Shown here: one piece after another, positions 264 to 35,207 of the stretch | How the letters are laid out: every line of letters begins with the position of its first letter | Position numbering within the stretch: position 1 is the first letter of the stretch | Origin: Maritimibacter alkaliphilus | GTDB lineage: Bacteria > Pseudomonadota > Alphaproteobacteria > Rhodobacterales > Rhodobacteraceae | Assembly: GCF_019801605.1 (NCBI RefSeq) | Contig: NZ_JAHVIT010000006.1 | Location: 62,001 to 126,000 of the forward strand | Direction: 5' to 3' | Length of the DNA stretch: 64,000 nucleotides | Program-made: the position numbers and the translations under genes | Notes under the pieces: generated by a model | Database searches by the model: none | What the model saw: only the letters and a program-made list of their open reading frames with translations | What the model was told of the DNA's origin: nothing

Positions 264-499
264 CAGCGGTACTCAAGGCAGAATTGCATCCCCTGTCCCG
301 AGCTAGCGGTTGATCGGCGGGGCGGTTTCCGGTCTCCTTCCTGCATGGGGCGGCGCTGCTGAGGAGAAGCGCCGCCTGCAGCCAGAGAAGACATGGCCGG
401 CGTTTCATGGGCGCTGCCCCCGGTGGGCAGCCCGCGTGGACCGCTGCTGGAAATCGCCTGCGCCGCGCATTCCGCGTCGCGGGCCGGGAGGGACGTGCC

Positions 500-1552
500 G
501 TGACGACGGATCGCTGGAAGAAGAGGCCCGAGGGCTCGAACTGGGGGGATTTCGGTCCCGACGACCAGAAGGGGCGGCTGAACCTGCTGACGCCGGAACG
601 GGTCCGCGCCGCCGTGGCCGAGGTGCGCGAGGGGCAGAGCTTCTGCCTCAGCCTGCCGCTCGACTATCCCGGCGGCAACGCGATGAACGCCAACCGCCAT
701 CCGCCGATCCTGCGCCCCAGCCTGCGCAACGGCGGGGTGAACATGAACTACGTCTACAGCGCGCAGAACGCCCATTCCCATGACGTCCTCTCGGACGATC
801 TGGCGATCCTGCACCTGCAGTATTCGACCCAGTGGGACGGGCTCTGCCACGTCGGCGCGGTCTTTGACGTGATGGACGACGGCCAGCCTTTGCCGGTCTA
901 TTACAACGGTTTCCGCGCCGGGGAGGATGTCGTCGGCCCGGACCGGATCGAGGATTGCGGCTTGCAGGGCGAGATCCCGCCGCGCAGCACCTCGCAGGCC
1001 AAGGCGCTCGGCATCGAGAACATGGCCGCGACCGGTGTGCAGGGGCGGGGCGTGATGATCGACCTGCGGCGCCACTTCGGCGACGCCCGCACCCGGGTGG
1101 GCCATGACCTGCTGATGCAGGTGATCGAGGCCGACGGGATCGAGATCGCGCCGGGCGACATGCTGTGCCTGCACACCGGGCTGGCGGACCTGATCCTCGG
1201 GATGCGCAAGGATCCGGACCCCGCGGTGATCCACGGCAGCTGTGCCGTGCTCGACGGGGGCGATCCGGCGCTGCAGGACTGGATCCGCGACAGCGGCATC
1301 TCGGTCATCGCCAGTGACAATTACGCCGTGGAGGATTTCCCGGCGGAGCTGCCGAACCCCTGCTGCTCGATGCTGCCGCTGCACAACCTGTGCCTGTTCC
1401 GGCTGGGCATCCATCTGGGCGAGCTCTGGCACATGACCCCGCTGGCCGAGTGGCTGGCCGCACGGGGACGCCATCATTTCCTGCTGACCGCGCCGCCGCT
1501 GAGGCTGCCCGGCGCGGTGGGATCACCGGTCACACCGGTGGCGACCGTCTGA
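500..1552 (+). CDS. Cyclase family protein (kynurenine formamidase-like metal hydrolase)
   Basis: This 350-residue protein belongs to the putative cyclase / kynurenine formamidase fold (PF04199), whose members use a metal-bound water to open or close amide, lactone or similar bonds. The family core is visible at residues 110-122 (TQWDGLCHVG), where the usual His-x-Gly-Thr-His-x-Asp metal motif is changed to STQWDG with Asp113 and His117 kept; a YYNGF segment follows at 134-138. GTG at 500 is chosen as start because GGGAGGGA lies just upstream at 486-493; the ATG at 407 has no ribosome-binding site and adds a low-complexity leader. It is the first gene before a TRAP transporter, so it probably acts on the imported compound. 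Confidence 0.75.
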   Translation: MTTDRWKKRPEGSNWGDFGPDDQKGRLNLLTPERVRAAVAEVREGQSFCLSLPLDYPGGNAMNANRHPPILRPSLRNGGVNMNYVYSAQNAHSHDVLSDDLAILHLQYSTQWDGLCHVGAVFDVMDDGQPLPVYYNGFRAGEDVVGPDRIEDCGLQGEIPPRSTSQAKALGIENMAATGVQGRGVMIDLRRHFGDARTRVGHDLLMQVIEADGIEIAPGDMLCLHTGLADLILGMRKDPDPAVIHGSCAVLDGGDPALQDWIRDSGISVIASDNYAVEDFPAELPNPCCSMLPLHNLCLFRLGIHLGELWHMTPLAEWLAARGRHHFLLTAPPLRLPGAVGSPVTPVATV

Positions 1553-1613: not shown

Positions 1614-2660
1614 ATGATGACCAAGACGTTTCACGGAGCGGCCCTGGGCCGGAAAGCGGCTCTCGCAACGGGTCTGATCGCGGGCCTAGGGGCAACGGGC
1701 GCCATGGCCGAGGTCAAGCTGACCTTCGCCGACTGGCAGGTGCCCGCCGCCTCGACCACGCAGGAGGCCGCCAAGGTCTTCATGGACAAGGCGACGGAGC
1801 TGTCGGGCGGCGAGATCACCTTCGACTACTTCCCCGCAGAACAGCTGGGCAAGGGCGGCGAGATGCTGCGCCTGCTGCAGACCGGCGTCGCGGACGTGGC
1901 CCATGTCTCGCCCGCCTACATCACCGACAAGTTCCCGATGACCACCGTCTCGGAGCTGCCGGGGATGCCGCTCGACAGCTGTGCGCTTGCCAATGCGCTC
2001 TACGAGCTCGCCCAGCCGGGCGGGGCGCTCTACGAGGCGGAGTTCAAGCCCAACGGCATCCGCCTGCTCTTTGCCGGCAACCTCGGGCCCTACAGCATCC
2101 TGACCACCGAGAAGCCGATCGCCTCGCTGGCCGATCTTTCGGGGCTGAACATCCGCACCGCCGGTGGCCCGATGGAGATGACGGCGACCGAACTGGGCGC
2201 GAACGCGATCCGGATGACCGGTTCGGAAACGCTGCCCTCGCTGTCGCGCGGCACGCTGGACGGGCTGCTCTGGCCGGTGCCGCTGGTCGAGGACTGGGGA
2301 CTGGAGGAGGCGCTTCACAACGTGACGCCGAACCTCAGCACCGGCAGCTTCGTGGTGACCTACTCGATCAGCGACAGCATCTGGGACGGCCTGAGCGAGA
2401 GCCAGCAGGAGGCCCTGACCGAGGCCGGGAAATACGCGACAGAGCAGTATTGCGGTTTCGTCAACCGGACCTGGGACGAGAGCCTGAAGCGGCTGGAAGA
2501 GGTGCATGGCATCGTGCCGCTCGACTTGCCCGAGAGCGAGCTGGCGGCCGCCGGAGAGCGCTTCGAGATGGTCCACGCCAAGTGGATCGACGGTCTGAAG
2601 GGCCGCGCCGTGTCGAGCCAGGACATCTATGACAGCTTCCGGGCACTCGCGACGGAGTGA
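1614..2660 (+). CDS. TRAP transporter substrate-binding protein, DctP family
   Basis: This periplasmic binding protein of 348 residues delivers a carboxylate-type ligand to the DctQM permease encoded next. A signal peptide covers about residues 1-32, with a Lys/Arg region, a hydrophobic core and an AMA cleavage site before EVKLTFADWQ. The mature part has the DctP hallmark of a ligand-contacting region near NIRTAGGPMEM, where an arginine usually binds the carboxylate. GGGAGGAG stands six bases before the first of two adjacent ATG codons. A hairpin and a tandem repeat lie between this gene and the permease genes, probably to keep binding protein in excess. The ligand is unknown. Confidence 0.9.
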   Translation: MMTKTFHGAALGRKAALATGLIAGLGATGAMAEVKLTFADWQVPAASTTQEAAKVFMDKATELSGGEITFDYFPAEQLGKGGEMLRLLQTGVADVAHVSPAYITDKFPMTTVSELPGMPLDSCALANALYELAQPGGALYEAEFKPNGIRLLFAGNLGPYSILTTEKPIASLADLSGLNIRTAGGPMEMTATELGANAIRMTGSETLPSLSRGTLDGLLWPVPLVEDWGLEEALHNVTPNLSTGSFVVTYSISDSIWDGLSESQQEALTEAGKYATEQYCGFVNRTWDESLKRLEEVHGIVPLDLPESELAAAGERFEMVHAKWIDGLKGRAVSSQDIYDSFRALATE

Positions 2661-2668
2661 CGTTGCGG

Positions 2669-2689
2669 GGCCGGGCCCTGCGCCCGGCC
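2669..2689 (+). terminator. Hairpin after dctP-like gene, possible attenuator
   Basis: GGCCGGG at 2669-2675 pairs with CCCGGCC at 2683-2689 around a 7-base loop, nine bases after the stop of the binding-protein gene. There is no T-run, so partial termination or protection of the upstream mRNA is more likely than full termination. Confidence 0.45.
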
Positions 2690-2756
2690 TCATGGTCCAG
2701 ATCCCGGGGGCGGTCCTGCAACCCGGTCCCTTGGGTCACGGTGCAGTGAGCTCGAA

Positions 2757-2798
2757 CCTTTGATCCCGGTCCTTTGTTCGGGGCCCTTTGTTCGGGGC
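2757..2798. repeat. Three tandem 14-bp repeats
   Basis: Three consecutive 14-base units begin with CCTTTG; the second and third are identical (CCTTTGTTCGGGGC) and the first differs at several bases. They lie in the 246-base gap between the TRAP binding protein and small permease genes. No function is known. Confidence 0.7.
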
Positions 2799-2906
2799 CC
2801 GTCTGATCCATCCACGACACCCGGACCGCCCGCCCCCGCGCGCGGTCCAGACGGTCGGGCCCCAGTGGCCCGCCCCTTCGGCCCACCTCTTGGAATGTGA
2901 CGCCTG

Positions 2907-3455
2907 ATGTACTCGATACCCGATCCCGAACCGACCCGGATGCAGGGCTTCTACCGCCTTGTCTATCGCCCGCTCGACCGGCTGACGACGCTGGTGGAGC
3001 AGGGGCTGCTGACGCTCTGCTCGCTGGCGATCCTTGCCGCGATGCTGCTGACCACGGTGGATGTCTTCCTGCGCTACGGCTTCAGCCGCCCGCTGGGGTG
3101 GTCCTTCGATTTCGTGATGCTCTACCTGATGCCCGCGGCCTACTACATGGCGTTTTCCTACGCGATGAAGATCGGCGCGCATCTCTCGGTCGACTTCTTT
3201 GCCGAGGCCCTGCCGCGCCGGCTGCTGCGCGTGACCTATCCTGTGCTGCTCCTGCTCTCTGCCGCGCTCGTCCTCTTCATCGGGGACCGGATCGCGGAGG
3301 AGGCGGTAGAGAGTTTCCGGGGCGGAGAGACGCTCTTCGGCTCGATCCAGTGGCTGACCTGGCCGACCAACGCGATCATCAGCGTCAGCTTCCTCGCGCT
3401 TGCGGTGCGGCTGCTGCTGGTGGCCTGTCGCGTTGCCTTCTTCGACGAGGAGTGA
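2907..3455 (+). CDS. TRAP transporter small permease, DctQ family
   Basis: The product has 182 residues and four predicted membrane segments, as expected for DctQ, the small membrane subunit that joins the large permease in the inner membrane. Hydrophobic stretches lie near residues 32-55, 70-87, 108-125 and 150-178. The Trp-rich start of the second segment (SRPLGWSFDFVM) is typical of the family. The gene lies 246 bases after the binding-protein gene and ends four bases before the start of the large permease gene. No strong ribosome-binding site is visible before ATG 2907, so the start is less certain than the identity. Confidence 0.88.
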   Translation: MYSIPDPEPTRMQGFYRLVYRPLDRLTTLVEQGLLTLCSLAILAAMLLTTVDVFLRYGFSRPLGWSFDFVMLYLMPAAYYMAFSYAMKIGAHLSVDFFAEALPRRLLRVTYPVLLLLSAALVLFIGDRIAEEAVESFRGGETLFGSIQWLTWPTNAIISVSFLALAVRLLLVACRVAFFDEE

Positions 3456-3459
3456 GCCC

Positions 3460-4734
3460 GTGGACATCGTTCTTCCGATCCTGCTTCTGCTCGTTCTGCT
3501 GGTGCTCAGCGTGCCCGTGGCGCTCAGCCTCGCGCTCGCCGGGGTGGTGGGGATCTACATGCTCAAGGGGCTGCCCTCGCTGATCGGCATCCTCGCCACC
3601 GCGCCGAAATCCTCGCTTTCCAGCTACGAGCTGCTGACCATCCCGATGTTCATCCTGATGGCGGAATTCACCGGGATGAGCGGCATCTCGGGCAACCTGT
3701 TCCGCGCCGTCTCGGTCTGGGCCGGGCGGCTCAAGGGGGGCTTGGGCATCTCGACCGTGATCACCGGGGCGCTCTTCGGCGCGGTCTCCGGCTCCAGCAC
3801 GGCGGCGGCGGCGACACTGGCGCGCACCTCGATCCCGGCGATGCTGGAGCAGGACTACAGCGCGCGCACCGCCGCCGGCATCGTGGCCATGGCGGGAACC
3901 ATCGCCATGCTGATCCCGCCGAGCGTGGCGCTGATCTTCTACGGGCTGCTCAGCGGGACCAATATCTCGCTGCTGCTGATCGCGGGGATCGTGCCGGGGC
4001 TGCTGGTGACGTTGGTGCTCTCGGTCACGATCTGGGCCACCACGGCCAGCCGGGCCGATGCGCCGCGCCACAGCTGGTCGGAACGCCTCGCCTCGCTTTG
4101 GGTGGCTCTGCCCTTCCTCGGTCTCTTCGGCGCGGTGACCGGGCTGATCTACACCGGCATCGCGACGCCGGTGGAATCCTCGGCCATCGGGGCGATGGCG
4201 GCGCTGGTCTTCACGGTGGCCAATGGCAGCTGCAGTTTCGACGGGCTGAAGAAGGCCTTCGTCAACACCTGCACCGTCACCGCGATGATCGGGCTGATCA
4301 TCGTCTGCGCACAGATCTTCGGCTACTTCATCACCATGTCTGGCATCGCGCGGTCGCTGGCCGCCGCGATCAGCGGGGCGGATGTGCCGATCTGGGGCGT
4401 GATGACGGTCATCGTGCTGATGTACCTCTTCCTCGGTCTCTTCCTCGACCTGATCTCGATCCTGATCCTGACGGTGCCGGTGATGCTGCCCGTGGTGCAG
4501 CAACTGGGGCTGGACCCGATCTGGTTCGGTATCGTGATCATCCTGCTGGCGGAAATCGGCATCGTCACGCCGCCGGTGGGGATGAACGTCTTCGTGGTCT
4601 CCTCCGTTTCGGGGATCCCGCTCAAGGAATGCTTCGCCGGGGTGCTGAAGCCGATCCTTGCCGTGCTGCTGCTGGTCATCGTCCTGGTCATCTGGCCGGG
4701 GATCACCCTGTGGCTGCCCAACACCATGCATTGA
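3460..4734 (+). CDS. TRAP transporter large permease, DctM family
   Basis: This 424-residue polytopic protein is the ion-coupled transport subunit of the TRAP system. It has the DctM features of a first helix rich in Leu/Val, a GLGISTVITGALFGAVSGSS segment near residue 90, and a repeated IPPSVALI/TPPVGMNVFV element in the two halves. GTG 3460 is preferred because AGGAG overlaps the end of the small permease gene just upstream; an in-frame ATG at 3400 would add 20 residues that do not resemble the family. It forms one transporter with the proteins encoded at 1614 and 2907. Confidence 0.92.
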   Translation: MDIVLPILLLLVLLVLSVPVALSLALAGVVGIYMLKGLPSLIGILATAPKSSLSSYELLTIPMFILMAEFTGMSGISGNLFRAVSVWAGRLKGGLGISTVITGALFGAVSGSSTAAAATLARTSIPAMLEQDYSARTAAGIVAMAGTIAMLIPPSVALIFYGLLSGTNISLLLIAGIVPGLLVTLVLSVTIWATTASRADAPRHSWSERLASLWVALPFLGLFGAVTGLIYTGIATPVESSAIGAMAALVFTVANGSCSFDGLKKAFVNTCTVTAMIGLIIVCAQIFGYFITMSGIARSLAAAISGADVPIWGVMTVIVLMYLFLGLFLDLISILILTVPVMLPVVQQLGLDPIWFGIVIILLAEIGIVTPPVGMNVFVVSSVSGIPLKECFAGVLKPILAVLLLVIVLVIWPGITLWLPNTMH

Positions 4735-4750
4735 CCGAAGGACAGTCCCC

Positions 4751-5836
4751 ATGGCCAAGAAGAAACTCCTCCTTTTCGGCGCGACCGGTGTCATCGGGCA
4801 GGCGGCGCTGCGCCATTTCCGCAGCCTCGACGGCTGGACCGTCGTGCCCGTCAGCCGCCGCGTGCCCGAGGGCGAGCGGCAGGCCCTCTCCCTCGACCTG
4901 CTGGACGAGGCCGCCTGCGCCGAGACGCTGGGCGCGCTCACCGACATCACACACGTTCTCTATGCCGCGGTCTACGAGAAGCCCGGCGCCCTGATCGAGG
5001 GCTGGCGCGATCCGGAGCAGATGGCCAACAACGACCGGATGCTGCGCAACGTCATGGGCCCGCTGCTGGCCAGCGGCAGCCCGCTGGAGCATGTGACCCT
5101 GTTCCAGGGCTCCAAGGCCTATGGCAGCCATATCGAGACTCAGGTGCCGATCCCGGCCAAGGAACGCTGGCCGCGCCATGACCACCGCAACTTCTACTGG
5201 TTGCAGGAGGACTACCTGCGGGAATGCCAGCAGGGGGCCGACTGGGCCTTTACCGTCCTGCGCCCCCGGATCGTCTTTGGCGGGGCCTTCGGCAGCAACA
5301 TGAACCCGATCTCGGCCATCGGGGTCTATGCCGCCATCCAGCGCGAGAAGGGCGAGCCGCTGCACTATCCCGGCGGGCCCGCGCGGATCAACCAGGCGGT
5401 CGATGCCGACCTGATCGCCCGCGCCTGTGCCTGGGCCGCGACGTCGCCCAACGGCCGGAACGAGATCTTCAACATCGACAACGGCGACCTCTTCGTCTGG
5501 CAGACCGTCTGGCCCAGGATCTGCGAGGCGCTCGACATGCCCATGGGCGAGGCGCGGCCGATGTTCCTCGACACGCTGCTGGAGGAGGGCGCGGAGACCT
5601 GGGCCGCCATCGTCGACCGCCACGGCCTGAAGGCCCCGCGCGAGATCGGCCGCGTGGTGGGGCAGAGCCTGGGCTACACCGACTGGCAGATGTCCACCGG
5701 CAAGGAGGTCGCGCCGAACCCGGTCATCGCCAGCACGATCAAGATCCGGCAGGCGGGCTTTGCCGACTGCATCGACACCGAGGACATGTTCGCCAAGTGG
5801 TTCGAGCACTATCGCCGCGAGGGGTACCTGCCATGA
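4751..5836 (+). CDS. SDR oxidoreductase of the PRISE (progesterone 5-beta-reductase/iridoid synthase-like) family
   Basis: This 361-residue enzyme is an atypical short-chain dehydrogenase. The nucleotide-binding motif GATGVIG is at residues 10-16. The PRISE catalytic signature replaces the usual YxxxK: Lys122 in QGSKAYG and Tyr149 in RNFYWLQEDYL match the lysine and tyrosine that in plant progesterone 5-beta-reductase carry out 1,4-reduction of enones. Activity on an alpha,beta-unsaturated carbonyl is therefore likely, with NADPH as donor. ATG 4751 follows the permease stop by 16 bases, and the stop overlaps the next start by ATGA, so it is co-translated with the AtuA gene. Confidence 0.82.
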   Translation: MAKKKLLLFGATGVIGQAALRHFRSLDGWTVVPVSRRVPEGERQALSLDLLDEAACAETLGALTDITHVLYAAVYEKPGALIEGWRDPEQMANNDRMLRNVMGPLLASGSPLEHVTLFQGSKAYGSHIETQVPIPAKERWPRHDHRNFYWLQEDYLRECQQGADWAFTVLRPRIVFGGAFGSNMNPISAIGVYAAIQREKGEPLHYPGGPARINQAVDADLIARACAWAATSPNGRNEIFNIDNGDLFVWQTVWPRICEALDMPMGEARPMFLDTLLEEGAETWAAIVDRHGLKAPREIGRVVGQSLGYTDWQMSTGKEVAPNPVIASTIKIRQAGFADCIDTEDMFAKWFEHYRREGYLP

Positions 5837-7176: not shown

Positions 7177-7185
7177 GAGGACCCC

Positions 7186-7524
7186 ATGAAGGTCATGCTG
7201 CGCCGGCTGGCGCATTCCCGGTCCGGGGACAAGGGCAACACCTCGAACATCGCGGTCATCGCCTATGATCCCGCGCTCTACCCCCTGCTGCGCGCGGCCC
7301 TGACGGAGGCGCGGGTGAAACAGCGCTTCGGGGCCGCCATGACAGGGCCCGTGACCCGCTACGCGGTCGACGGGCTGGGGGTGCTGAACTTCGTTTGCGA
7401 GGGCGCGCTCGGCGGCGGGGTGTCGCGCAACCTCTGCCTCGACAACTACGGCAAGACGCTGGCGGCGGCGGTGCTCGACATCGAGATCGACGTGCCGGAG
7501 GAGCTCTGCGGCCTGCTGCGCTGA
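7186..7524 (+). CDS. AtuA-related small protein (AtuA-like ferredoxin-fold domain)
   Basis: This 112-residue protein opens with LRRLAHSRSGDKGNTSNIAVIAY, a signature of the small domain that either is fused to the C-terminus of AtuA-family proteins or is encoded next to them. Here it is separate, starting nine bases after the AtuA stop with AGGAGG in front of the ATG. The SRSGDKG motif is the most conserved part of the domain and may form a binding loop. Its function is unknown; the pairing suggests that both chains form one enzyme or complex. The frame ends with LLR and a stop, followed by the IclR promoter region. Confidence 0.82.
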   Translation: MKVMLRRLAHSRSGDKGNTSNIAVIAYDPALYPLLRAALTEARVKQRFGAAMTGPVTRYAVDGLGVLNFVCEGALGGGVSRNLCLDNYGKTLAAAVLDIEIDVPEELCGLLR

Positions 7525-7539
7525 CGTGCCATGTAATTT

Positions 7540-7620
7540 GTACCGCTGAGCGGTCCGTATCGTGCGAATCTGGAAAAGCCCCTGTTTCTGCTGTTGAGTT
7601 TGGCGGTGAATATGTTTCGC
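7540..7620. promoter_or_regulatory. Regulatory region before IclR gene: palindrome and half sites
   Basis: ACCGCT-g-AGCGGT at 7542-7554 is a perfect palindrome. TGCGAA at 7563-7568 and TTTCGC at 7615-7620 are the two arms of the palindrome found at 249-263, here about 46 bases apart. Together they suggest that the IclR protein controls its own gene and the cluster start. Confidence 0.4.
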
Positions 7621-7630
7621 TGAGGGGGTC

Positions 7631-8461
7631 ATGAATATGGATGCGAACAGGAACACAGGTGCTAACGCGATGCTCGGCGTGGGGCGGGCGATTGCGGTGC
7701 TGCGGCTTGTCGGCAGCGCGCCGGAGCCCGGCCTGCGGCTACGGGACATCTCCGAAGCGCTGGACCTGCACAAGACCTCGACCTCGCGGATGCTGGCCAC
7801 GCTGATGAACCTCGGCGTGGTGGAGCGCGACCGGAACCGTTGCTACCGGGTGTCGGATGACTTCCGCGCCAGCTTCGGCACGCCGCTGACCACCACCCGC
7901 CTGCGGCAGGCCGCGCGGCCCGCGCTCGGGATGCTGTCGGAGCGGCTGGAGGACGTGGCCTTCCTGTCGGTGCCCGCCGGGCTCGACTCGCTCTGCGTCA
8001 GCCGCCACATCGGCACCTACCCGATCCAGGCGCTGTCGCTGAACGTCGGCGGGCGCCGCCCGCTGGGTGTCGGCGCGGGCAGCCTCGCGCTGCTGGCCTT
8101 CGCCCCCGACGGCGAGCGGGAGGACCTGATCGAGATGCAGCGCGACCGGCTGGGCAACTACCGCTGCACGGTGGAGGAGATCGCGGCGGCGGTGGAGGTC
8201 GCGCGCGGTCAGGGGTTCACCGACCTGCCGGGTTTCGTGGTGCAGGGCATGACCGGCATGGGCATCCCGCTGCGCGATCCCTCGGGGGTCGTCGTGGGGG
8301 CGCTGTCCGTCGCCGCGATCACGGACCGGCTGACCGGAAGCCGGAGAGACATGGCCATCACGGCGCTGCATGACGCCGCCGCGATGGTCGAGCGCCGCTT
8401 CAGGGAGGGAGCGGCACAGAGCGGCGGTTGGCCGAGCCATGACGGCGAGGAGACCGCCTGA
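7631..8461 (+). CDS. IclR family transcriptional regulator
   Basis: This 276-residue protein has an N-terminal winged helix-turn-helix (about residues 18-80, with LRLRDISEALDLHKTSTSRM as the HTH) and a C-terminal IclR effector domain. IclR proteins are usually local repressors or activators that bind small aromatic or organic acids. GAGGGGG precedes ATG 7631; a second ATG six bases on is also possible. It is embedded between the AtuA pair and the TAXI transporter, all on the same strand, and is the likely controller of the 500-14925 cluster. The effector domain's Cys and His positions give no clear clue to the ligand. Confidence 0.92.
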   Translation: MNMDANRNTGANAMLGVGRAIAVLRLVGSAPEPGLRLRDISEALDLHKTSTSRMLATLMNLGVVERDRNRCYRVSDDFRASFGTPLTTTRLRQAARPALGMLSERLEDVAFLSVPAGLDSLCVSRHIGTYPIQALSLNVGGRRPLGVGAGSLALLAFAPDGEREDLIEMQRDRLGNYRCTVEEIAAAVEVARGQGFTDLPGFVVQGMTGMGIPLRDPSGVVVGALSVAAITDRLTGSRRDMAITALHDAAAMVERRFREGAAQSGGWPSHDGEETA

Positions 8462-8490
8462 GCGGAAGCCTCAATTCCAAGGAGGAGGGA

Positions 8491-9429
8491 ATGATGAAGG
8501 CGATGACGATCGGAATGGTGCTGGGGGCGGGGCTGAGCCTTGCCGCGGCACAGGCAGGGGCCCAGACCCTCACGCTGGCCTCGGGCCCCTCGGGGGGCAC
8601 GTGGTATCCGCTGGGGGCCGCGCTGGCCAAGATCATCGAGGAGGAAGTGCCGGGCACCCGCGTCAGCGTGGTCAACGGCGTGACGGTGGCGAACATCCTC
8701 GGCACCAACGCGGGGCAGTACGATCTGGCCCTGTCGCTCTCGACCTCGAACGTCGATGCGATGGCGGGCACCGGAGAGGTCTTCCCCGCCCCGCAGGAGA
8801 AGATCCGCGGCATCGCGGGCTTCTATTCGGCGCCCTACCAGATGGCCGTGGCGGCGGACAGCGACATCACCTCGGTCAAGGATTTCGCCGGCAAGGTGAT
8901 CAACCCCGGCGTCGTGGGCGGCGCGACCGATGCGCTGACCCGCGTGGTGCTGGAACTCAACGACCTGAGCTATGACGACATGTCCCGGGTCGAGCGCCTG
9001 TCCTATGCCGATGCCTCGATGCAGCTGAAGGACGGGCATCTGGATGTCTTCACCGGCATCCTCTCGGTCCCCTCGGGCGCGATCGCGGAGGCCGCGCTCG
9101 GCAACGGCGTGCGCCTCGTGCCGATGAGCGACGAGACCCTCGCCGCGCTTCAGGAGCGCAACGACGGCTACGTCAAGGTCGAGATCCCGGCCGAAACCTA
9201 CAAGGGACAGTCCGAGGCCGTGCAGGCGGTGGGGACCAACAACGTGCTGATCGCCAATGCCGATCTCGATCCCGCGCTGATCGAGAAGATCACCAAGGCC
9301 ATCGTCGAACACGCGGAAGAGCTGCACGCGGTCAACGCGGCGCTCTCCGGCTTTGGCCGTGCGACCGCGTCCGAGGGGATCGGCGCCCCGCTGCATCCCG
9401 GCGCCGAAGCCTACTACAGCGCCAACTGA
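8491..9429 (+). CDS. TAXI family TRAP transporter substrate-binding protein
   Basis: The 312-residue product has a signal peptide of about 24 residues ending AGA before QTLTLASG. It continues with GPSGGTWYPLGAALAKIIEE, the glycine-rich opening of TAXI proteins, a binding-protein class unrelated in sequence to DctP. TAXI proteins serve fused permeases like the one encoded next. GGAGGAGGG lies directly upstream of the double ATG at 8491. It is the second TRAP binding protein of this cluster, which suggests a second substrate, or a different form of the same substrate, is imported. The ligand is unknown. Confidence 0.92.
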   Translation: MMKAMTIGMVLGAGLSLAAAQAGAQTLTLASGPSGGTWYPLGAALAKIIEEEVPGTRVSVVNGVTVANILGTNAGQYDLALSLSTSNVDAMAGTGEVFPAPQEKIRGIAGFYSAPYQMAVAADSDITSVKDFAGKVINPGVVGGATDALTRVVLELNDLSYDDMSRVERLSYADASMQLKDGHLDVFTGILSVPSGAIAEAALGNGVRLVPMSDETLAALQERNDGYVKVEIPAETYKGQSEAVQAVGTNNVLIANADLDPALIEKITKAIVEHAEELHAVNAALSGFGRATASEGIGAPLHPGAEAYYSAN

Positions 9430-9443
9430 GCCGCTGACCCTTG

Positions 9444-9468
9444 CCGGCCATGCAGGGCGCATGGCCGG
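9444..9468 (+). terminator. Hairpin between TAXI binding protein and permease genes
   Basis: CCGGCCATG at 9444-9452 pairs perfectly with CATGGCCGG at 9460-9468 around a 7-base loop, 15 bases after the binding-protein stop. It lacks a T-tract and probably acts as an mRNA-stabilising or attenuating structure that keeps binding protein above permease. Confidence 0.5.
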
Positions 9469-9491
9469 TGATGCCCCATAGGAGACGACCC

Positions 9492-11357
9492 ATGAGAGCT
9501 GTGGCCATCGCGGCAAGCCTTGCGCTTGCGGCTTTCCACCTGTGGACAGGCCTGACCGGCGTGTTCGAGAGCTTCCTTCAGCGCAACCTGCACCTGCTGC
9601 TGGTGATCCTCGCCATCGCCGCCTTTGCCCTCTCCGACCGGGAGCAGGGCACGCGGCTGCGCCGGGGGATCCTGCTGCTCGCGGCGGCGGCCCTGTCGGT
9701 GTCGCTGGTCTACAACCTGCTGAACGCCACCCATTTCGCCAACCGCATGGCCTATGTCATCCCGCTCGACGGGCTCTCCATCGCCATGGCCCTGCTGGGG
9801 ATGGCGGCGCTGCTGGTGGTGTCGGTCCTGATGATGGGGCGGGCCTTCGGGCTGATCATCGTGGTCTTCCTCGCCTACCTCGCCTGGGGGGCAGGGCTGC
9901 CCGGGGCGCTCGGCCACCGGGGCTTCGGGCTCTCGTGGTCGGTGGACCATCTCTACTACACCAAGGAGGGGGTCTTCGGCATTCCGCTGGGGGTTTCGGC
10001 CACCTACATCTACCTCTTCGTCTTCTTCGGTGCGGTACTGGACCGCTGCGGCGGCGGGCAGTTCCTGATCAACCTCGCCCTCGCCCTGACCTCGCGGCTG
10101 CGGGGCGGGCCGGCCAAGGCCTCCATCGTCGGCTCGGCGCTGATGGGCACGATCTCGGGCTCCGCGGTGGCCAACGTGGTCACCACCGGGGCCGTCACGA
10201 TCCCGCTGATGAAGCGCAATGGCTACCGCCCGCATTTCGCGGCGGCGGTGGAGGCCGCGGCCTCCTCCGGTGGACAGCTGATGCCGCCGGTCATGGGCGC
10301 CACGGCCTTCGTGATCGCCGAGTTCGTCGGCCGCCCGTACCAGGAGATCGCGCTCTCCGCGCTGATCCCGGCGTTCCTCTTCTACCTCGGCCTGTTCAGC
10401 GCCGTGCATTTCGAGGCCGTCCGCCGCGGCATCCCGCGCGCCGGTGTCGGGGCGCAGGTGCGGCTGCTGGAGGGCAGCTTCTACCTGCTGCCGCTGATGG
10501 TGGTCGCGGCCGGGGTCTTCGTCTACTCGCCCATGCGGGCCGGGGTCATGGGCGTGGCGGCGGTGATCTTGGTGGCGCTTGGCTATGGCCTGCTGCGCGG
10601 GGAACTGTCCCGCCTGCCGGTCCGGCTGATGGAGGGCTGCGAGAGCGCGGCGCGCGCCATGGGGCCGGTGGCCATCGCCTGTGCGGCGTCGGGCATGATC
10701 GTCGGGGTGCTGAGCCTGACCGGGCTGGGGCTGGCGATCAACAACGCGATCCTCGCCATGGCGGGGCAGTCGCTGCTGGCGGCGCTCGTGCTGACGATGC
10801 TGTCCTCGCTGATCCTCGGGATGGGGCTGCCGACGGTGGCGGCCTACTTGGTGCAGGCAGGGGTGACGATCCCGGCGCTGATCCAGCTGGGGATCGCACC
10901 CATTCCGGCGCATCTCTTCGTCTTCTACTTCGCGATCCTCGGCAACGTGACGCCGCCCGTGGCGGTTGCGGCCTATGCCGCCGCCGGGGTGGCGGGAACC
11001 GATCCGGCGCACACCGGCTGGACCGCGCTCGCGCTTTCCGTCCCCGCTTTCGTGGTGCCCTTCATGTTCGTGCTGAACCCGGCGCTGGTGTTGCAGGGCG
11101 GCCTTGCGGTCAGCCTCGGCGCGGTGGTCACGGCGATCATCGGGGTCATCGCCCTGTCGGCGGCGATCGTGGGCTGCCTTCAGGCCCGGATCGGTGCGGG
11201 CGCGCGCCTGCTGCTGGCCGGGGGCGCGCTGATGATGCTGGCGCCCGGGCTGCTCACCGACGCGACCGGCGGGGCGCTGATCCTCGCCGGGGCGCTGCTG
11301 GGGCGGCTGCGGCCGCTCGTGGCACCGAGGACTGACAAGGGAGAAGTGGCCGGATGA
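9492..11357 (+). CDS. TRAP transporter fused permease (DctQ-DctM fusion, TAXI type)
   Basis: The 621-residue protein is a fused TRAP permease: an N-terminal region with about four helices replaces the small subunit, followed by the DctM-like transport core. The core is recognised by MGTISGSAVANVVTTGAVTIP near residue 218 and by LGMGLPTVAAY and GNVTPPVAVAAYAAA further on. ATG 9492 is chosen because AGGAGACG precedes it; the 17 codons upstream include the hairpin arm and are not coding. It pairs with the TAXI protein encoded at 8491. Its stop overlaps the start of the thiolase-like gene by ATGA. Confidence 0.92.
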   Translation: MRAVAIAASLALAAFHLWTGLTGVFESFLQRNLHLLLVILAIAAFALSDREQGTRLRRGILLLAAAALSVSLVYNLLNATHFANRMAYVIPLDGLSIAMALLGMAALLVVSVLMMGRAFGLIIVVFLAYLAWGAGLPGALGHRGFGLSWSVDHLYYTKEGVFGIPLGVSATYIYLFVFFGAVLDRCGGGQFLINLALALTSRLRGGPAKASIVGSALMGTISGSAVANVVTTGAVTIPLMKRNGYRPHFAAAVEAAASSGGQLMPPVMGATAFVIAEFVGRPYQEIALSALIPAFLFYLGLFSAVHFEAVRRGIPRAGVGAQVRLLEGSFYLLPLMVVAAGVFVYSPMRAGVMGVAAVILVALGYGLLRGELSRLPVRLMEGCESAARAMGPVAIACAASGMIVGVLSLTGLGLAINNAILAMAGQSLLAALVLTMLSSLILGMGLPTVAAYLVQAGVTIPALIQLGIAPIPAHLFVFYFAILGNVTPPVAVAAYAAAGVAGTDPAHTGWTALALSVPAFVVPFMFVLNPALVLQGGLAVSLGAVVTAIIGVIALSAAIVGCLQARIGAGARLLLAGGALMMLAPGLLTDATGGALILAGALLGRLRPLVAPRTDKGEVAG

Positions 11358-12502
11358 GACAGGCCTTCATTGCCGGAACCGGGCTGACCGCCTTCGGTCG
11401 GTTCGAGGGGGAAAACACGCTCGACCTGATGAGCCGCGCGGCGCGGCAGGCGCTGGCCGACGCGGGGCTGGAGCGCGGGCAGGTGGATGGGCTGGTGACC
11501 GGCTATTCCACCGCCATGCCGCACCTGATGATGGCCACCCTCTTTGCCGAACACTTCGGCCTCCGGCCATCCTATGCCAATGCCCTGCAACTGGGCGGCG
11601 CGACCGGCGCCGCGCTGGTGATGCTGGCCAAGCTGCTGGTCCAGTCGGGCCAGTGCGAACGGGTCCTCGTCGTCGCGGGGGAGAACCGCCTGACCAACCA
11701 GGGCGGGCGGGATCAGGCGATCCAGACCCTCGCGCAGGTCGGCCACGCCACGCAGGAGGTGCCCTTCGGCGCCACGATCCCGGGATACTACGCGCTGCTC
11801 GCGGGCCAGTACCTCGCCCGGACCGGGGCCACCGGGGCGGACCTCGCGGCCATTGCCGTACACATGCGCCGCCATGCCATCGAGACGGAGGGCGCCCATG
11901 TGACCGCGCCGCTGACCGTGGAGGAGGCGCTTGCCTCGCGGCCCATCGCCGAGCCGCTGCGGCTGGCGGATTGCTGTCCGATCTCGGACGGGGCGGCGGC
12001 CTTCGTGATCTCCGCCGCGCCCTCGGAGCAGGGCGCGGTGCGCATCGCCGGGGCCGGGCAGGCACACCGGCATCAGCATGTCTCCATGGCGACCGAATGG
12101 GAGAATTTCGGCGCCGCCGATGCCGCCGACCGGGCCTTTGCCGAGGCCGGGATCGGACGCGACGCGATCGAGGTTCTGGGCATCTACGACAGTTTCACCG
12201 TGACCCTCGCCATGCTGCTGGAGGAAACCGGCTTCGCCCCGCGCGGGCAGGCGGGCCGCCGGATCGCGGAGGGTGCCCATGCCGTGGACGCGCTGCCGCT
12301 GAACACCCATGGCGGGCTGCTCAGCTATGGCCACCCCGGTGTCGCCGGGGGCATGGCCCATCTGGTCGAGGTGACCCGCCAGATGCAGCGCCGCGCCGGG
12401 GCGCGTCAGGTACCGGGGCCCGCGCGCGCGGGTTACGTCCATGCCGACGGCGGGGTGCTGTCGGCCCATGTGGGCCTCGTGCTCGCAACGGATCGGGGGT
12501 GA
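11354..12502 (+). CDS. Thiolase-like protein lacking the nucleophilic cysteine (possible acyl-CoA aldolase/lyase)
   Basis: This 382-residue protein has the thiolase fold, seen in GTGLTAFGRF at the start, VLVVAGENR in the middle and a terminal NTHGGLLSYGHPGVAGG with the conserved GHP histidine. The active-site loop reads QLGGATGAALVM (residues 79-90), so the position of the thiolase nucleophilic Cys is a glycine, and the NEAF motif is replaced by YDSF. This is the pattern of SCP2/lipid-transfer-type thiolase-like proteins, some of which (Ltp2 of steroid degraders) work with a DUF35 partner as retro-aldolases. A DUF35 protein is encoded next. A C-C lyase acting on a CoA ester is therefore more likely than a true thiolase. 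Confidence 0.82.
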   Translation: MRQAFIAGTGLTAFGRFEGENTLDLMSRAARQALADAGLERGQVDGLVTGYSTAMPHLMMATLFAEHFGLRPSYANALQLGGATGAALVMLAKLLVQSGQCERVLVVAGENRLTNQGGRDQAIQTLAQVGHATQEVPFGATIPGYYALLAGQYLARTGATGADLAAIAVHMRRHAIETEGAHVTAPLTVEEALASRPIAEPLRLADCCPISDGAAAFVISAAPSEQGAVRIAGAGQAHRHQHVSMATEWENFGAADAADRAFAEAGIGRDAIEVLGIYDSFTVTLAMLLEETGFAPRGQAGRRIAEGAHAVDALPLNTHGGLLSYGHPGVAGGMAHLVEVTRQMQRRAGARQVPGPARAGYVHADGGVLSAHVGLVLATDRG

Positions 12503-12505
12503 GGA

Positions 12506-12871
12506 ATGCAGTCTCTGGAAACCCATGTCGCACAGGTCTTTGCCTCCGGGCAGATCGCCTATCAGCACTGCCCCGCCTGTGGCGCGTCGCAGGCCCTTGC
12601 ACGTCCCTTCTGTGTCGCCTGCCTGCATCCCGCGCCGGAGTGGCGCCGGGCGCAGGGCACCGGCCGCGTCGTCTCCGTCACGACGATGCACCGCGCCCCC
12701 ACGCCCGAGTGGAAGGGGCGGCTGCCCTATACGATCGCGCTCGTCGACCTCTCCGAGGGGCTGCGGGTGATGGCGCTTGCGACGCCCGGACTGGCTGCCG
12801 GCGATGCCGTGCGGCTGCGGCCCGAACCGCTTCATGATCTTCCCTGTTTCGAACCGATGGTGACAGAATGA
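12506..12871 (+). CDS. Zn-ribbon/OB-fold protein (DUF35 family), partner of thiolase-like protein
   Basis: The 121-residue product has a rubredoxin-like zinc ribbon with Cys22, Cys25, Cys36 and Cys39 (CPAC and CVAC) followed by an OB-fold (GTGRVVSVTTMH to the end). DUF35 proteins act as CoA-ester-binding partners of thiolase-like enzymes such as HMG-CoA synthase, archaeal thiolases and Ltp2-type aldolases. It starts three bases after the thiolase-like gene and its stop overlaps the next start by ATGA, so the three products are probably made together. Confidence 0.88.
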   Translation: MQSLETHVAQVFASGQIAYQHCPACGASQALARPFCVACLHPAPEWRRAQGTGRVVSVTTMHRAPTPEWKGRLPYTIALVDLSEGLRVMALATPGLAAGDAVRLRPEPLHDLPCFEPMVTE

Positions 12872-14925
12872 GCCTCTCTGACCTTCTCAACCCCGCCAGC
12901 GTCGCCGTCTTCGGCGCCTCCCAGAACCCCGAGAAGATCGGCGGCCGGCCGATCCGTTTCATGAAGGAACACGGGTTCCGGGGCCGCATCTACCCGATCA
13001 ACCCGGCGCGCGAGAGCGTGCAGGACCTGACCTGCTACCCCGATCTCGACGCGCTGCCCGAGGTGCCGACGGTGGCCATCATCGCCGTCGCCAAGGAGCG
13101 GGTGATGGACACCCTCCGGCTTTGCGCCGAGCGCGGCGTGAAGGGCTGCGTGGTCATGGCCAGCGGCTTCGGCGAGGTGGACGAGGCCGGGCGCGCCGAC
13201 GAGGCGGAGATGCGGGAGATCTCGGCCCGCACCGGGATGCGCATCGTCGGCCCCAACAGCCAGGGGCTGGCGAATTTCAACAGCGGCGCGATCCTCAGCT
13301 TCTCGACCATGTTCGTCGAGGAACCGCCGACGCCCGGGCCCATCGCCTGCATCAGCCAGAGCGGCGCCATGAGTGTCGTGCCCTACGGCATGTTGCGCCA
13401 GCGGGGCATCCCGGTCGGCCATTGCCATGCCACCGGCAACGACGCCGATGTCACGGTCAGCGAACTGGCCGCCGAAGTGGTGCTGGACCCGGAGGTCAAG
13501 CTCTGCATCCTCTACCTCGAAACCCTGCGCGACCCCGAGAACCTCGCCCTTGCGGCGCGTCGGGCCAAGGAGCGCGGGGTGCCGATCATCGCGTTGAAAT
13601 CGGGCCGCTCGCCCGACGGGCAGCGCGCGGCGGCCTCCCACACCGGGGCGATCGCGACCGAGGACCGGGTGATCGATGCCTTCCTCGAACGGCACGGGAT
13701 CTGGCGCGCGGAGGGGACCGAGGCGTTGGTCCATGCGGCAGAGCTCTACCTGCAGGGCTGGCAGCCGAAGGGCCGCCGGATGGCCGTCGTCTCGAACAGC
13801 GGGGCGACCTGCGTGCTGACCGCGGATGCGGTGGACCGCTACGGGCTGGAGCTGGCGCAGTTCACCGCCGAGACCGAGGAACAGGTCCGGCAGGTGCTGC
13901 CCGATTTCGCCGCCAGCCGGAACCCCGTGGACATCACCGCCGCGCTGCTGAGCGACAGCGGTCTCTTCGGCAAGGTGCTGCCCCGGGTGGGCGAGGATGC
14001 GGGTGTCGATATCCTGATGATCGGCATCCCGGTCAGCGGCAAGGGGTACGACTTCGAGCGCTTCGCGCAGGACACCGCGGATTTCGTGGCGGCCTACGGC
14101 AAGCCGGTGGTCCTTGCCGCGCCGCAGGTCAGTGTCCGGGCGGCCTTTGCCCGGCACGGCATCCCCTCCTTCGAGACCGAGGATGGCGCGGTGCGGGCGC
14201 TCGCGCAGTTCGTCGATCACCTCGCCATGATGGCGCGGGCGGCGGGCGGCGTGCCGCTGCGGGGAGGGCTCTGCGATGGCGGGGCGACGCTCGATGAATT
14301 CGCCTCGCTCGACCGGGTCGCGGCGAAGGGGGTGAAGGTGCCCCTGCGGATGATCTGCCAGACGGAGGAGGAGGCGCAGGACTTCCTCGCGCGCTGCCCC
14401 GGCGGCGTTGTGCTGAAGGCCAATTCGCCGGCGATCCCGCACAAGTCGGAACACGGCCTTGTCCGGGTCGGGCTGCGGACCCCGCAGGAGGTGAGCCGCC
14501 ACTTCGACGAGATCGCGGCCAAGGTGGCCGAGCTTGACGTGCCCTTCGAGGGCGTGCTGGCCGCCGAGATGCTGGGCGGCGGGCGCGAGCTGGTGGTCGG
14601 CGGGCACCTCGACCCGATCTTCGGCCCCGTCGTGGTGATCGGCGATGGCGGCGTCGCGGTCGAGGCGATGCCCGACAACCGCCTGCTGCTGCCGCCCTTC
14701 AGCGAGGGGGAGGTCGAGTCGGCCCTTGCCGGCCTGCGTATCGGTCCGCTCTTCCGCGGGGTGCGGGGGGCCAAGCCGCTCAACGCCCGCGCGGTCTACG
14801 AGGCCGCCCGCGGCGTGGCGGAACTACTGGTCGACGGCGGCGCGGTCTCGGTGGACATCAACCCGCTGATCGCGACCTCCGAAGGGGCCACGGCGGCCGA
14901 CGCACTGCTCGAAGTGCGGCGCTGA
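12868..14925 (+). CDS. Acyl-CoA synthetase, NDP-forming (acetyl-CoA ligase-like)
   Basis: This 685-residue protein has the ADP-forming acyl-CoA synthetase layout: a CoA-binding domain (residues about 7-130, starting with PASVAVFGASQNPEKIGG), succinyl-CoA synthetase-like flavodoxin domains, and a C-terminal ATP-grasp domain (about 470-685, with VLKANSPAIPHKSEHG). His258 in AASHTGA matches the phosphohistidine of the family. It would activate a carboxylic acid, or conserve energy from a CoA product by making ATP. It is the last gene of the cluster and is followed by a hairpin terminator. Confidence 0.88.
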   Translation: MSLSDLLNPASVAVFGASQNPEKIGGRPIRFMKEHGFRGRIYPINPARESVQDLTCYPDLDALPEVPTVAIIAVAKERVMDTLRLCAERGVKGCVVMASGFGEVDEAGRADEAEMREISARTGMRIVGPNSQGLANFNSGAILSFSTMFVEEPPTPGPIACISQSGAMSVVPYGMLRQRGIPVGHCHATGNDADVTVSELAAEVVLDPEVKLCILYLETLRDPENLALAARRAKERGVPIIALKSGRSPDGQRAAASHTGAIATEDRVIDAFLERHGIWRAEGTEALVHAAELYLQGWQPKGRRMAVVSNSGATCVLTADAVDRYGLELAQFTAETEEQVRQVLPDFAASRNPVDITAALLSDSGLFGKVLPRVGEDAGVDILMIGIPVSGKGYDFERFAQDTADFVAAYGKPVVLAAPQVSVRAAFARHGIPSFETEDGAVRALAQFVDHLAMMARAAGGVPLRGGLCDGGATLDEFASLDRVAAKGVKVPLRMICQTEEEAQDFLARCPGGVVLKANSPAIPHKSEHGLVRVGLRTPQEVSRHFDEIAAKVAELDVPFEGVLAAEMLGGGRELVVGGHLDPIFGPVVVIGDGGVAVEAMPDNRLLLPPFSEGEVESALAGLRIGPLFRGVRGAKPLNARAVYEAARGVAELLVDGGAVSVDINPLIATSEGATAADALLEVRR

Positions 14926-14952
14926 TTGGCGCTGTCTGACGCTGACTGCCGG

Positions 14953-14996
14953 GGGGGGGAGCGGCCTGCGGGCCGCCCCTCCCGGGCAACATTTTT
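14953..14996 (+). terminator. GC-rich hairpin and T-run after acyl-CoA synthetase gene
   Basis: A G-run leading into GAGCGGCC pairs with GGCCG(CCC)CTCCC around a short loop centred at 14968, with a three-base bulge, and is followed by ATTTTT. It ends the + strand cluster ahead of the convergent cob operon. Confidence 0.6.
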
Positions 14997-15107
14997 GGCA
15001 CCGTTCTTGGCCATGTTTCTGTCCGTGTAGCTAATTCGGCCGCTGATTTGGCCGCCCGCCGGGCCGCCTGCCGGGGCGCCAGTTGGGCGGCCGGTCTGGC
15101 AATATGG

Positions 15108-15884
15108 TCAGGCTCCGGTCACGGCGGGGCGCCGACGCATCAGGTAGATATCCATGATCCAGCCCTGCGCGGCGCGGGCCCGTGCGCGGGTCTGGCGGAT
15201 CTCCTCGGCTGTCTCGGCAAGGGCGCCCGCCACCAGCACCTGCTGGCGCATGCCCACGTAGGCGCCCCACCAGATTTCGATCCCCGCCGGGTCGAGGACC
15301 TCGAAGGCGCAGCCGTTGTCGAGCAGGACCACGGCGGTATCCGCCCCCTCGGGCCAGCCCTCCGCCCGCAGCCGCCGCCCCGTGGTGACGAGCACCGGCG
15401 CGGCAAGGTCGTTGAGCGGAATCGCATGGGCCGCGCAGAGCGCCTGTATCGCGGTGATCCCGGGCAGGACGCGCAGCTCCAGCTCCATCCCCTGCCGCAG
15501 GCGGGCGGCGATGCGCAGCGTGCTGTCATAGACCGACGGGTCGCCCCAGACGAGGAAGGCCACGCGCGGTCCGCCGCCCCGGGCGAGGTGGGCGAGGATC
15601 GCCTGCTGCCAGACCTCGGCGATCCTGTCGTGCCAGTCGCCGACCCTCTGCAGGTAGTCCGGCGTACCGGGATCGCGCACCGGCAGGTCGAAGCCCTCTA
15701 TCCGCGTGGCGGGGTTGGTCACGCAGCTGCGGCAGATCTCGTGCCGCAGCCCGGCGAGGTCGGACTTCTCCTCGCCCTTGAGGGGGATCAGGATCAGGTC
15801 GGCCGCGTTCATCGCGTGGATGCCCTCGCGGGTGACGTGATCCGGATTGCCGGTGCCGATGCCGATCAGGGACAGCTCGATCAT
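15108..15884 (-). CDS. cobF: Precorrin-6A synthase (deacetylating) CobF
   Basis: The 258-residue protein is a tetrapyrrole methylase with the opening LSLIGIGTGNPDHVTREGI and a long insertion after GRRLRAEGWPEGADTAV typical of CobF. In the aerobic B12 pathway CobF methylates C1 of precorrin-5 with SAM and releases the acetyl group. It is the last gene of the cob operon and starts three bases after the cobA stop. CobF is found only in the oxygen-dependent pathway, which agrees with cobG upstream. Confidence 0.95.
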   Translation of the reverse strand: MIELSLIGIGTGNPDHVTREGIHAMNAADLILIPLKGEEKSDLAGLRHEICRSCVTNPATRIEGFDLPVRDPGTPDYLQRVGDWHDRIAEVWQQAILAHLARGGGPRVAFLVWGDPSVYDSTLRIAARLRQGMELELRVLPGITAIQALCAAHAIPLNDLAAPVLVTTGRRLRAEGWPEGADTAVVLLDNGCAFEVLDPAGIEIWWGAYVGMRQQVLVAGALAETAEEIRQTRARARAAQGWIMDIYLMRRRPAVTGA

Positions 15885-15887
15885 CGC

Positions 15888-35106: not shown

Positions 35107-35207
35107 CCTTCGCCCAAAGGTCGCGAAAGAGCCAGTCAATTCGCCGGAAATATGCGCGCGTGATCGGCTAAGATCCCGGGGATGCTATGACAAGGAGGAG
35201 GTCACGC

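Follow-up and report, generated by a model that had tools for sequence, protein, structure and literature searches.

A cysteine-less thiolase-fold protein and its DUF35 partner, a predicted beta-hydroxyacyl-CoA retro-aldolase, in a putative carboxylate-degradation operon of Maritimibacter alkaliphilus

Introduction

Among proteins of the thiolase fold, the closest described systems to the one studied here are two aldolases of steroid side-chain degradation, namely CtSal-CtShy, which acts on the C5 side chain of bile acids (PDB 9MYR), and TcLtp2-ChsH2, which acts on the C3 side chain of steroids (PDB 6OK1), each with a DUF35 protein as partner. In these aldolases the thiolase nucleophile has given way to a glycine, whose backbone NH was modelled beside the beta-hydroxyl (PMC12329534). 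For CtSal, the same report gives Tyr302 as the proposed base and Cys304 as the acid, with the variants Y302F, C304A, C304S and C304H showing no detectable activity, and it finds the effect of the Tyr-to-Phe exchange in agreement with the same tyrosine in Ltp2, where Tyr294 is the base and Tyr344 the acid (PMC12329534). IpfD/IpfE of ibuprofen degradation is described as a retro-aldolase releasing propionyl-coenzyme A (CoA) (PMC9195938, PMC6063337). However, DUF35 also pairs with the true thiolases 6ESQ and BbsB, which retain the nucleophilic cysteine in our sequence check, and with the acyltransferase PhlC (PMC12329534), thus a DUF35 partner is not diagnostic of an aldolase. In this study we analyse a pair of this build in Maritimibacter alkaliphilus, found in a stretch of 64,000 nucleotides (contig NZ_JAHVIT010000006.1, positions 62,001 to 126,000), which is called the window hereafter: a thiolase-like protein of 382 aa (11354..12502, plus strand) and a DUF35 protein of 121 aa (12506..12871, plus strand).

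Our analysis suggests, with a probability of about two in three, that the pair cleaves beta-hydroxyacyl-CoA as a retro-aldolase similar in kind to Sal, Ltp2 and IpfD, within a carboxylate-degradation operon. This is the best reading because the thiolase-like protein has a glycine at the nucleophile site and keeps the motif tyrosine, the DUF35 partner is constant, and hydratase and CoA-activating genes are neighbours in relatives. The activity, substrate and stoichiometry of the pair, together with the roles of His327 and Ser280, are what we infer from these comparisons.

Results and Discussion

A glycine and a tyrosine in the active site

In the Pfam profile search the 11354..12502 protein matched Thiolase_C_1 (PF22691) at 3.5e-44 and, weakly, Thiolase_N at 1.1e-9, and 24 NCBIfam models were listed for it, all of which stayed below their own cut-offs. 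The alignment comprised 68 thiolase-like proteins of the fetched loci (frames of 330-460 aa, duplicates dropped, all of them gathered through their similarity to the window protein), together with five chains of solved structures and the true thiolase of the window (35187-36386). GGATG occupies residues 81-85 and YDSF residues 278-281; the cysteine of VCGSG in the true thiolase aligns with Gly82, and its NEAF with Tyr278-Asp-Ser-Phe. A first-pass annotation of the window had seen GGATG in the nucleophile loop and YDSF in place of NEAF, and the alignment bears this out. By the alignment there is no thiolase nucleophilic cysteine in the N-terminal domain loop, and no second thiolase cysteine of HDCF or of the C-terminal CxG, Ser280 and His363 standing there instead; the cysteine of the C-terminal CIGGG of the true thiolase falls at or beside His363, one column apart between two alignments. 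The thiolase histidine is retained as His327 (SYGHPG), a histidine of the GHP type as in catalytic thiolases. The missing cysteine is no accident of one sequence, since Gly82, YDSF, His327 and His363 are present in all 31 distinct sequences at least 47% identical to the window protein (itself included), and the next sequences, at most 39% identical, have other motifs. YDSF itself occurs beyond this clade, in 4u4e and in a second Methylobacterium protein.

Compared by position, Gly82 corresponds to Gly83 of Ltp2, Gly88 of IpfD and residue 113 of the CtSal chain (Gly89 in the numbering of PMC12329534, the offset being 24), and Tyr278 to Tyr294 of Ltp2, Tyr302 of CtSal and Tyr292 of IpfD. Ser280 stands at His296 of Ltp2 and Cys304 of CtSal, and His327 at Tyr344 of Ltp2 and Gln352 of CtSal. 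Having Gly82 and the tyrosine of the YDxF/Y motif, the residues that Sal, Ltp2, IpfD and the other Cys-less acyl-CoA retro-aldolases, broadly defined, have in common, the window protein belongs by sequence to this wide group of Cys-less thiolase-fold proteins. Judged by the same alignment it is neither Sal nor Ltp2 proper, since each assignment fails on the tested defining residues. The earlier expectation of Ltp2-like active-site tyrosines in the plural has to be given up, for Tyr278 alone has its counterpart, Tyr294, and Tyr344 is matched by His327.

There are only three cysteines in the protein, C101, C207 and C208. The latter two form a DCC motif which is common to Ltp2 and 4u4e and is not found in Sal, therefore they are not the thiolase nucleophile. 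A cysteine elsewhere in the active site was what the first-pass annotation had named as evidence against an aldolase. C208 does align with a serine of the true thiolase of the window. The stretch around that serine lines the active site in biosynthetic thiolases, so Cys208 may be near the active site.

The DUF35 partner

The Zn-ribbon/OB-fold DUF35 protein that had been noticed downstream is confirmed. The 12506..12871 protein matches OB_ChsH2_C (PF01796) at 2.9e-14 and zf-ChsH2 (PF12172) at 1e-4, the latter with 22.5 bits just under the cut-off of 23.2, and has a C4 zinc ribbon of Cys22/25/36/39 (C-x2-C-x10-C-x2-C), whose zinc cysteines are kept in 13 of 13 aligned partners. A DUF35 gene lies near 54 of the 54 Cys-less proteins and near 2 of the 14 Cys-bearing ones among the 68, as detected by a model that was built from the partners of close relatives and used at a loose threshold, so that more distant DUF35 genes next to Cys-bearing thiolases may have escaped it. 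In the clade of the window protein, the DUF35 gene is directly downstream of the thiolase-like gene at 31 of 31 loci. What is more, the three PF01796 genes found in the host genome adjoin its three Cys-less thiolase-like genes (window, L002 and L004), and the Cys-bearing L003 is without one.

Comparison with described systems

Like CtSal-CtShy, the window pair combines the thiolase fold with a glycine at the nucleophile site, the tyrosine of a YD motif and a DUF35 partner; a MaoC hydratase, with which CtSal is linked, is met at 12 of 31 loci of its clade, the window not among them. However, CtSal has YDCY with the essential Cys304, as well as Gln352, where the window protein has Ser280 and His327, and its partner carries a C3H1 zinc finger, unlike the C4 pattern of the window DUF35; the two thiolase-like proteins share 30.7% identity over 349 residues and fall in separate clades. 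TcLtp2-ChsH2 has in common with the window pair the glycine, the tyrosine, the DCC motif and a C4 zinc-ribbon partner, yet TcLtp2 has YDHF and the acid Tyr344 instead of YDSF and His327, and at 31.9% identity over 367 residues it also stands in a separate clade.

For the ibuprofen system we considered plasmid pIBU218 (NZ_CP059320), where three genes adjoin those of an aromatic-ring dioxygenase; they encode a 'hypothetical protein' of 395 aa, a protein with an OB fold and an AMP ligase, and from their order would be ipfD, ipfE and ipfF. The 395-aa protein has the glycine at the nucleophile site, YDAF and a tyrosine at the position of Ltp2 Tyr344. This ibuprofen-CoA dihydrodiol retro-aldolase resembles the window pair in being Cys-less, in the motif tyrosine and in the OB-fold partner, and IpfD acts outside steroids; it differs in Ala at the 280 position, Tyr at the 327 position and an aromatic substrate (31.5% identity), and IpfE keeps one of the four zinc cysteines of the window DUF35. 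The same plasmid has a second Cys-less protein (L094:938-2502) with the Ltp2-like YDHF and an OB-fold gene, by enoyl-CoA hydratase and CoA-transferase genes.

The best single-sequence match is PDB 4U4E, a 'putative thiolase' of Sphaerobacter thermophilus (3.4e-50), which shares the whole Gly/Tyr/Ser/His set at 34.5% identity but belongs to another clade, and for which we know of no function. The acetoacetyl-CoA thiolase-DUF35 complex 6ESQ and the benzoylsuccinyl-CoA thiolase BbsAB (7PXP) are alike in fold and in the DUF35 partner, but unlike the window protein they have the nucleophilic cysteine (CASG, CSAG) and HDCF or HDAF.

A role in steroid side-chain degradation was considered as the default and set aside: the four aligned of five host-genome matches have YDSF, YDAF, YDAF and HDCF, none of them YDHF or YDCY, the fifth (L005) being partial and left out of the alignment. 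A faint possibility of steroids or terpenoids is left by a PRISE reductase of the cluster, which is kin to steroid 5-beta-reductases. The first-pass annotation had held that such a C-C lyase outside steroids would be notable; the non-steroid reading is indeed favoured, but the window pair is not the first such enzyme, as IpfD/IpfE is a precedent in print (PMC9195938, PMC6063337).

Family, tree and distribution

The 68 proteins were sorted by motif into Gly+YDSF (31), Gly+YDAF (15), Gly+YDCF (5), Gly+YDCY (2), Gly+HDAF (1) and Cys+HDCF (14). Histidine at the 327 position occurs in 52 of the 54 Cys-less proteins, and 46 of these 52 also have the tyrosine and a Ser or Ala at the position of Sal Cys304. 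In the maximum-likelihood tree of 61 rows, for which 18 near-duplicates of 79 rows were left out, the Cys-less proteins including the window protein make up a single branch, which takes in 51 of the 61 rows (support 100/100). Within it the window clade of 22 rows (100/99) is apart from a group of 25 (97/95) which holds Sal, Ltp2, IpfD and 4u4e, the place of IpfD being unsure because of its long branch.

Regarding distribution, 12 of 14 relatives from the similarity search are alpha- or betaproteobacterial with 56-82% identity, and the other two are archaeal, Cys-bearing and 29% identical. Among 398 genomes of the same phylum, 11 further genomes have relatives at an E-value of 4e-119 or better. 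Only 7 of 21 genomes of the same genus have a clade protein (48-62% identity, assigned by identity), therefore the gene is patchy. Public records label such proteins as thiolase or acetyl-CoA acetyltransferase, and in a literature search reaching few subscription journals we recognised no publication on an enzyme of this clade.

Gene neighbourhoods of the relatives

Neighbourhoods of 9 kb were examined at the 31 clade loci, which are shortened by contig ends in L006, L010, L012, L013 and L066. A MaoC hydratase on the same strand is found at 12 loci, and at 11 of these it is no more than 3 kb away; it is either fused in the MFE-2 type or encoded by small genes adjoining the thiolase-like and DUF35 genes. 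Six genes from these loci went into the search model for it, five being confirmed by Pfam (L014, L017, L063, L065, L071) and one by annotation (L092), and the calls in L011, L015, L016, L062, L064 and L066 come from that model or tblastn alone. Since the host genome has only 8 PF01575 matches in 4.9 Mb (5 above cut-off), we estimate that a MaoC neighbour within 3 kb would be met by chance at about 1% of places. A CoA-activating gene (ADP-forming ligase, AMP ligase or CoA-transferase), on either strand, is found at 30 of 31 loci, and an AtuA gene at 10 of 31. In L006 the complete cluster of the window is found again, with all genes between cyclase and ligase.

A paralogue in the host genome (L004, YDAF; G000:C4:22902-24825) is adjoined by DUF35 and MaoC genes, a hydratase-aldolase layout which is absent at the window gene. 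At L008, a Maritimibacter relative (4221-8762, 13601-15049), genes of a short-chain dehydrogenase (SDR), an acyl-CoA dehydrogenase, an AMP ligase and an APH-type kinase are nearby, a set which we take to resemble levulinate (lva) operons; a levulinate-type role was dropped, as those genes are not seen in the window cluster. The ligase of L008 is followed by an aldehyde dehydrogenase gene, as would be expected if the product were an aldehyde. The AtuA pair of Methylobacterium aquaticum has an SMP-30/gluconolactonase gene as its neighbour (L091:10010-10957), and by analogy the PF04199 gene of the window may play this lactonase's part, hinting at a lactone intermediate. On the whole the neighbours, among them carboxylate receptors of the TRAP or Tct type, the PF04199 protein, the SMP-30 lactonase of L091 and CoA-transferase, do not agree on one substrate.

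Structure prediction

The single-chain model of the thiolase-like protein has a mean predicted local distance difference test score (pLDDT) of 75.3 and a predicted template modelling score of 0.82, with the active-site loops poor (pLDDT below 50 at 78-82 and 320-328). Among aldolases, the fold search gave 6ok1 (Ltp2) with Z 41.4, root-mean-square deviation (rmsd) 2.7 and 354 aligned residues, and 9myr (Sal) with Z 40.4, 3.1 and 358; the 'putative thiolase' 4u4e has Z 41.0. With Z of 40 to 46 for thiolases and aldolases alike, the modelled fold does not separate thiolase from aldolase. The alignment used for the fold model and for the profile search held one Cys-bearing archaeal row (L018). The single-chain model of DUF35 (pLDDT 90.2) has translation recovery factor Trf as its top fold match (6htj, Z 13.4) and matches the DUF35 subunits of Sal, Ltp2, 6esq, PhlB and BbsA with Z of 11.3 to 12.6, the chains of Sal and Ltp2 being tied with 6htj within about 1 Z.

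Proposed mechanism and rival explanations

If the pair is built like the complexes solved for Sal and Ltp2, its core would consist of two thiolase-fold subunits, with a zinc-ribbon DUF35 on each side helping to wall the acyl pocket. TRAP transporters would import the acid, and the ligase encoded next to the pair would convert it to its CoA thioester. Then Tyr278 would deprotonate the beta-hydroxyl, which in analogy with the substrate model of CtSal would be held by the backbone NH of Gly82; cleavage of the bond between C-alpha and C-beta would release a carbonyl product (aldehyde or ketone) and leave the enolate of an acyl-CoA, and the enolate would be reprotonated by His327, the old thiolase histidine, or by another site residue to give acetyl- or propionyl-CoA. 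His327 is our candidate for the acid, with Ser280 or Cys208 as alternatives. Of the grounds on which the first-pass annotation had based a retro-aldolase, the glycine, YDSF and the DUF35 partner stand, but the partner is not diagnostic and the second catalytic residue is a different one.

Several points weigh against the retro-aldolase. The second catalytic residue of both proven steroid enzymes is absent, Tyr344 of Ltp2 being replaced by His327 and Cys304 of Sal by Ser280, and the serine which is native here kills CtSal when put in place of Cys304, as reported in PMC12329534. The window clade lies outside the group of Sal, Ltp2 and IpfD, so that function need not carry over. By fold, thiolases of the SCP2 type are as near or nearer (6et9 with Z 46.0, rmsd 2.8 and 372 aligned; 7yvy with Z 44.4), and the profile search also puts 6esq and 7yvy first. 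No MaoC hydratase is found within 9 kb of the window gene, where the Shy-Sal and ChsH1/H2-Ltp2 systems have one; the 31 loci are related, so the hydratase pattern amounts to about four gene arrangements, and 8 of the 14 Cys-bearing proteins of the DUF35 comparison are near-copies (L072-L079).

Some of the same facts would suit other functions. AtuA-type lyases give beta-oxoacyl-CoA in published cases, e.g. ThnQS giving 3-oxoazeloyl-CoA (PMC12016498), and a very slow decarboxylation of malonyl-CoA by TbSLP is reported (PMC12329534), hence the pair might be a Cys-independent decarboxylase or a hydrolase-like retro-Claisen enzyme acting on a beta-ketoacyl-CoA or malonyl-type product of the AtuA-type lyase encoded nearby. 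We consider this unlikely: in the same report acetyl-CoA was not detected from CtSal with malonyl-CoA (PMC12329534), AtuA was not seen within 9 kb at 21 of 31 loci (some of them shortened), and hydratases occur without AtuA (e.g. L062-L066, L092). That the protein is a working thiolase using another residue, such as Cys208 or Cys207, is more doubtful still. In its favour, SCP2-type thiolases are no farther off than aldolases by fold and profile scores, the thiolase-site His327 is retained, and each of the 34 rows with Gly82 and YDSF has both C207 and C208. Against it, the nucleophile position is glycine in every one of the 31 sequences, the proven aldolase Ltp2 has DCC as well, and most Cys-bearing thiolases also have a cysteine at the Cys207 position, therefore these are not a substitute nucleophile peculiar to the window protein.

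The combination of a thiolase with DUF35 is also that of PhlABC and its acyltransferase kin (PMC12329534), and multi-enzyme complexes are scaffolded by DUF35 domains according to the same report. C-C bond formation or acyl transfer (a PhlC-like acyltransferase, or biosynthetic aldol addition) nevertheless seems very improbable, since degradation is the better fit for an operon that combines uptake systems with an acyl-CoA ligase and a regulator of the IclR family. In addition, acyl transfer of the PhlC type depends on the cysteine; 9skm, a PDB entry among the fold matches, is titled as a C88S variant. We likewise give very little credence to a catalytically dead scaffold that would hold other operon enzymes through DUF35, because such a scaffold would not need the four active-site elements that are unchanged throughout the 31 sequences.

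Returning to the retro-aldolase, we tentatively propose, as a view that we would sooner doubt than adopt, a third type with a Tyr278/His327 pair instead of Tyr/Tyr (Ltp2) or Tyr/Cys (Sal). It would work in series with a lyase of the AtuA type, as part of an undescribed pathway by which Alpha- and Betaproteobacteria degrade carboxylates other than steroids. Since nearly all of the Cys-less proteins collected here have the histidine, most of them with the tyrosine and Ser or Ala as well, the Tyr/His type might prove to be the family's principal form and the two steroid enzymes special cases. If the retro-aldolase is true, the names thiolase and acetyl-CoA acetyltransferase would be wrong for many such proteins, and beta-oxidation models counting them as thiolases would misjudge the cleavage capacity of cells. 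It would also offer C-C lyases for non-steroid substrates to biocatalysis, and a degradation pathway could be traced via the neighbours AtuA, PRISE reductase and ligase.

The surrounding gene cluster

All genes of the cluster are on the plus strand. An ADP-forming acyl-CoA ligase of 685 aa (12868..14925), assigned by family and structure-database matches and predicted to activate the substrate, has the 4-hydroxybutyrate-CoA ligase 8wzu as its closest solved relative (7.7e-88). Its start overlaps the stop of the DUF35 gene (12871) by 4 nt, and the start of the thiolase-like gene overlaps by 4 nt the end of the gene of a TRAP transporter fused permease (9441..11357, the start being uncertain between 9441 and about 9490); by these outer overlaps the four genes very probably form one operon. 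Further upstream, family matches give a TAXI-family TRAP substrate-binding protein (8491..9429) and an IclR-family regulator (7631..8461). DctP-, DctQ- and DctM-like genes (1614..4734) were assigned by eye from translations, without a family search, so the putative catabolic cluster has two distinct TRAP transporters, the DctPQM-like one and the TAXI plus fused permease one (8491-11357).

An AtuA-family protein (PF07287; 5824..7176, start approximate) and a ferredoxin-like small AtuA protein (PF23544 by Pfam match; 7186..7524) are predicted to be a second C-C bond-cleaving system of the cluster. For the former we found one solved relative, 9erq, labelled citramalate lyase subunit A (E 0.01 by single sequence; profile E 2.8e-4 over 76 positions), and no paper behind this PDB label was found in the citramalate lyase literature from 2023 on. 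Another AtuA gene is present on the same contig, on the minus strand (G000:C6:13827-15137). Between the AtuA gene and the DctPQM-like genes lies a PRISE-type short-chain reductase of the progesterone 5-beta-reductase/iridoid synthase family (4751..5836, start approximate), and the first gene of the cluster is a PF04199 'putative cyclase' (407..1552, Pfam 9.7e-9). Taken together, two predicted C-C lyases, the PRISE reductase, PF04199 and two TRAP systems make it likely that the cluster serves to degrade a carboxylate which is branched or cyclic and carries a hydroxyl group or a double bond. The presence of the PRISE-type reductase (4751-5836) in a bacterial carboxylate operon is in its own right worth recording, since its kin are the progesterone 5-beta-reductase and the iridoid synthase of plants (1.2e-33). 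Beyond the ligase, the minus-strand genes at 15108-18708 look by eye from their translations, no search having been made, like cobalamin (corrinoid ring) biosynthesis.

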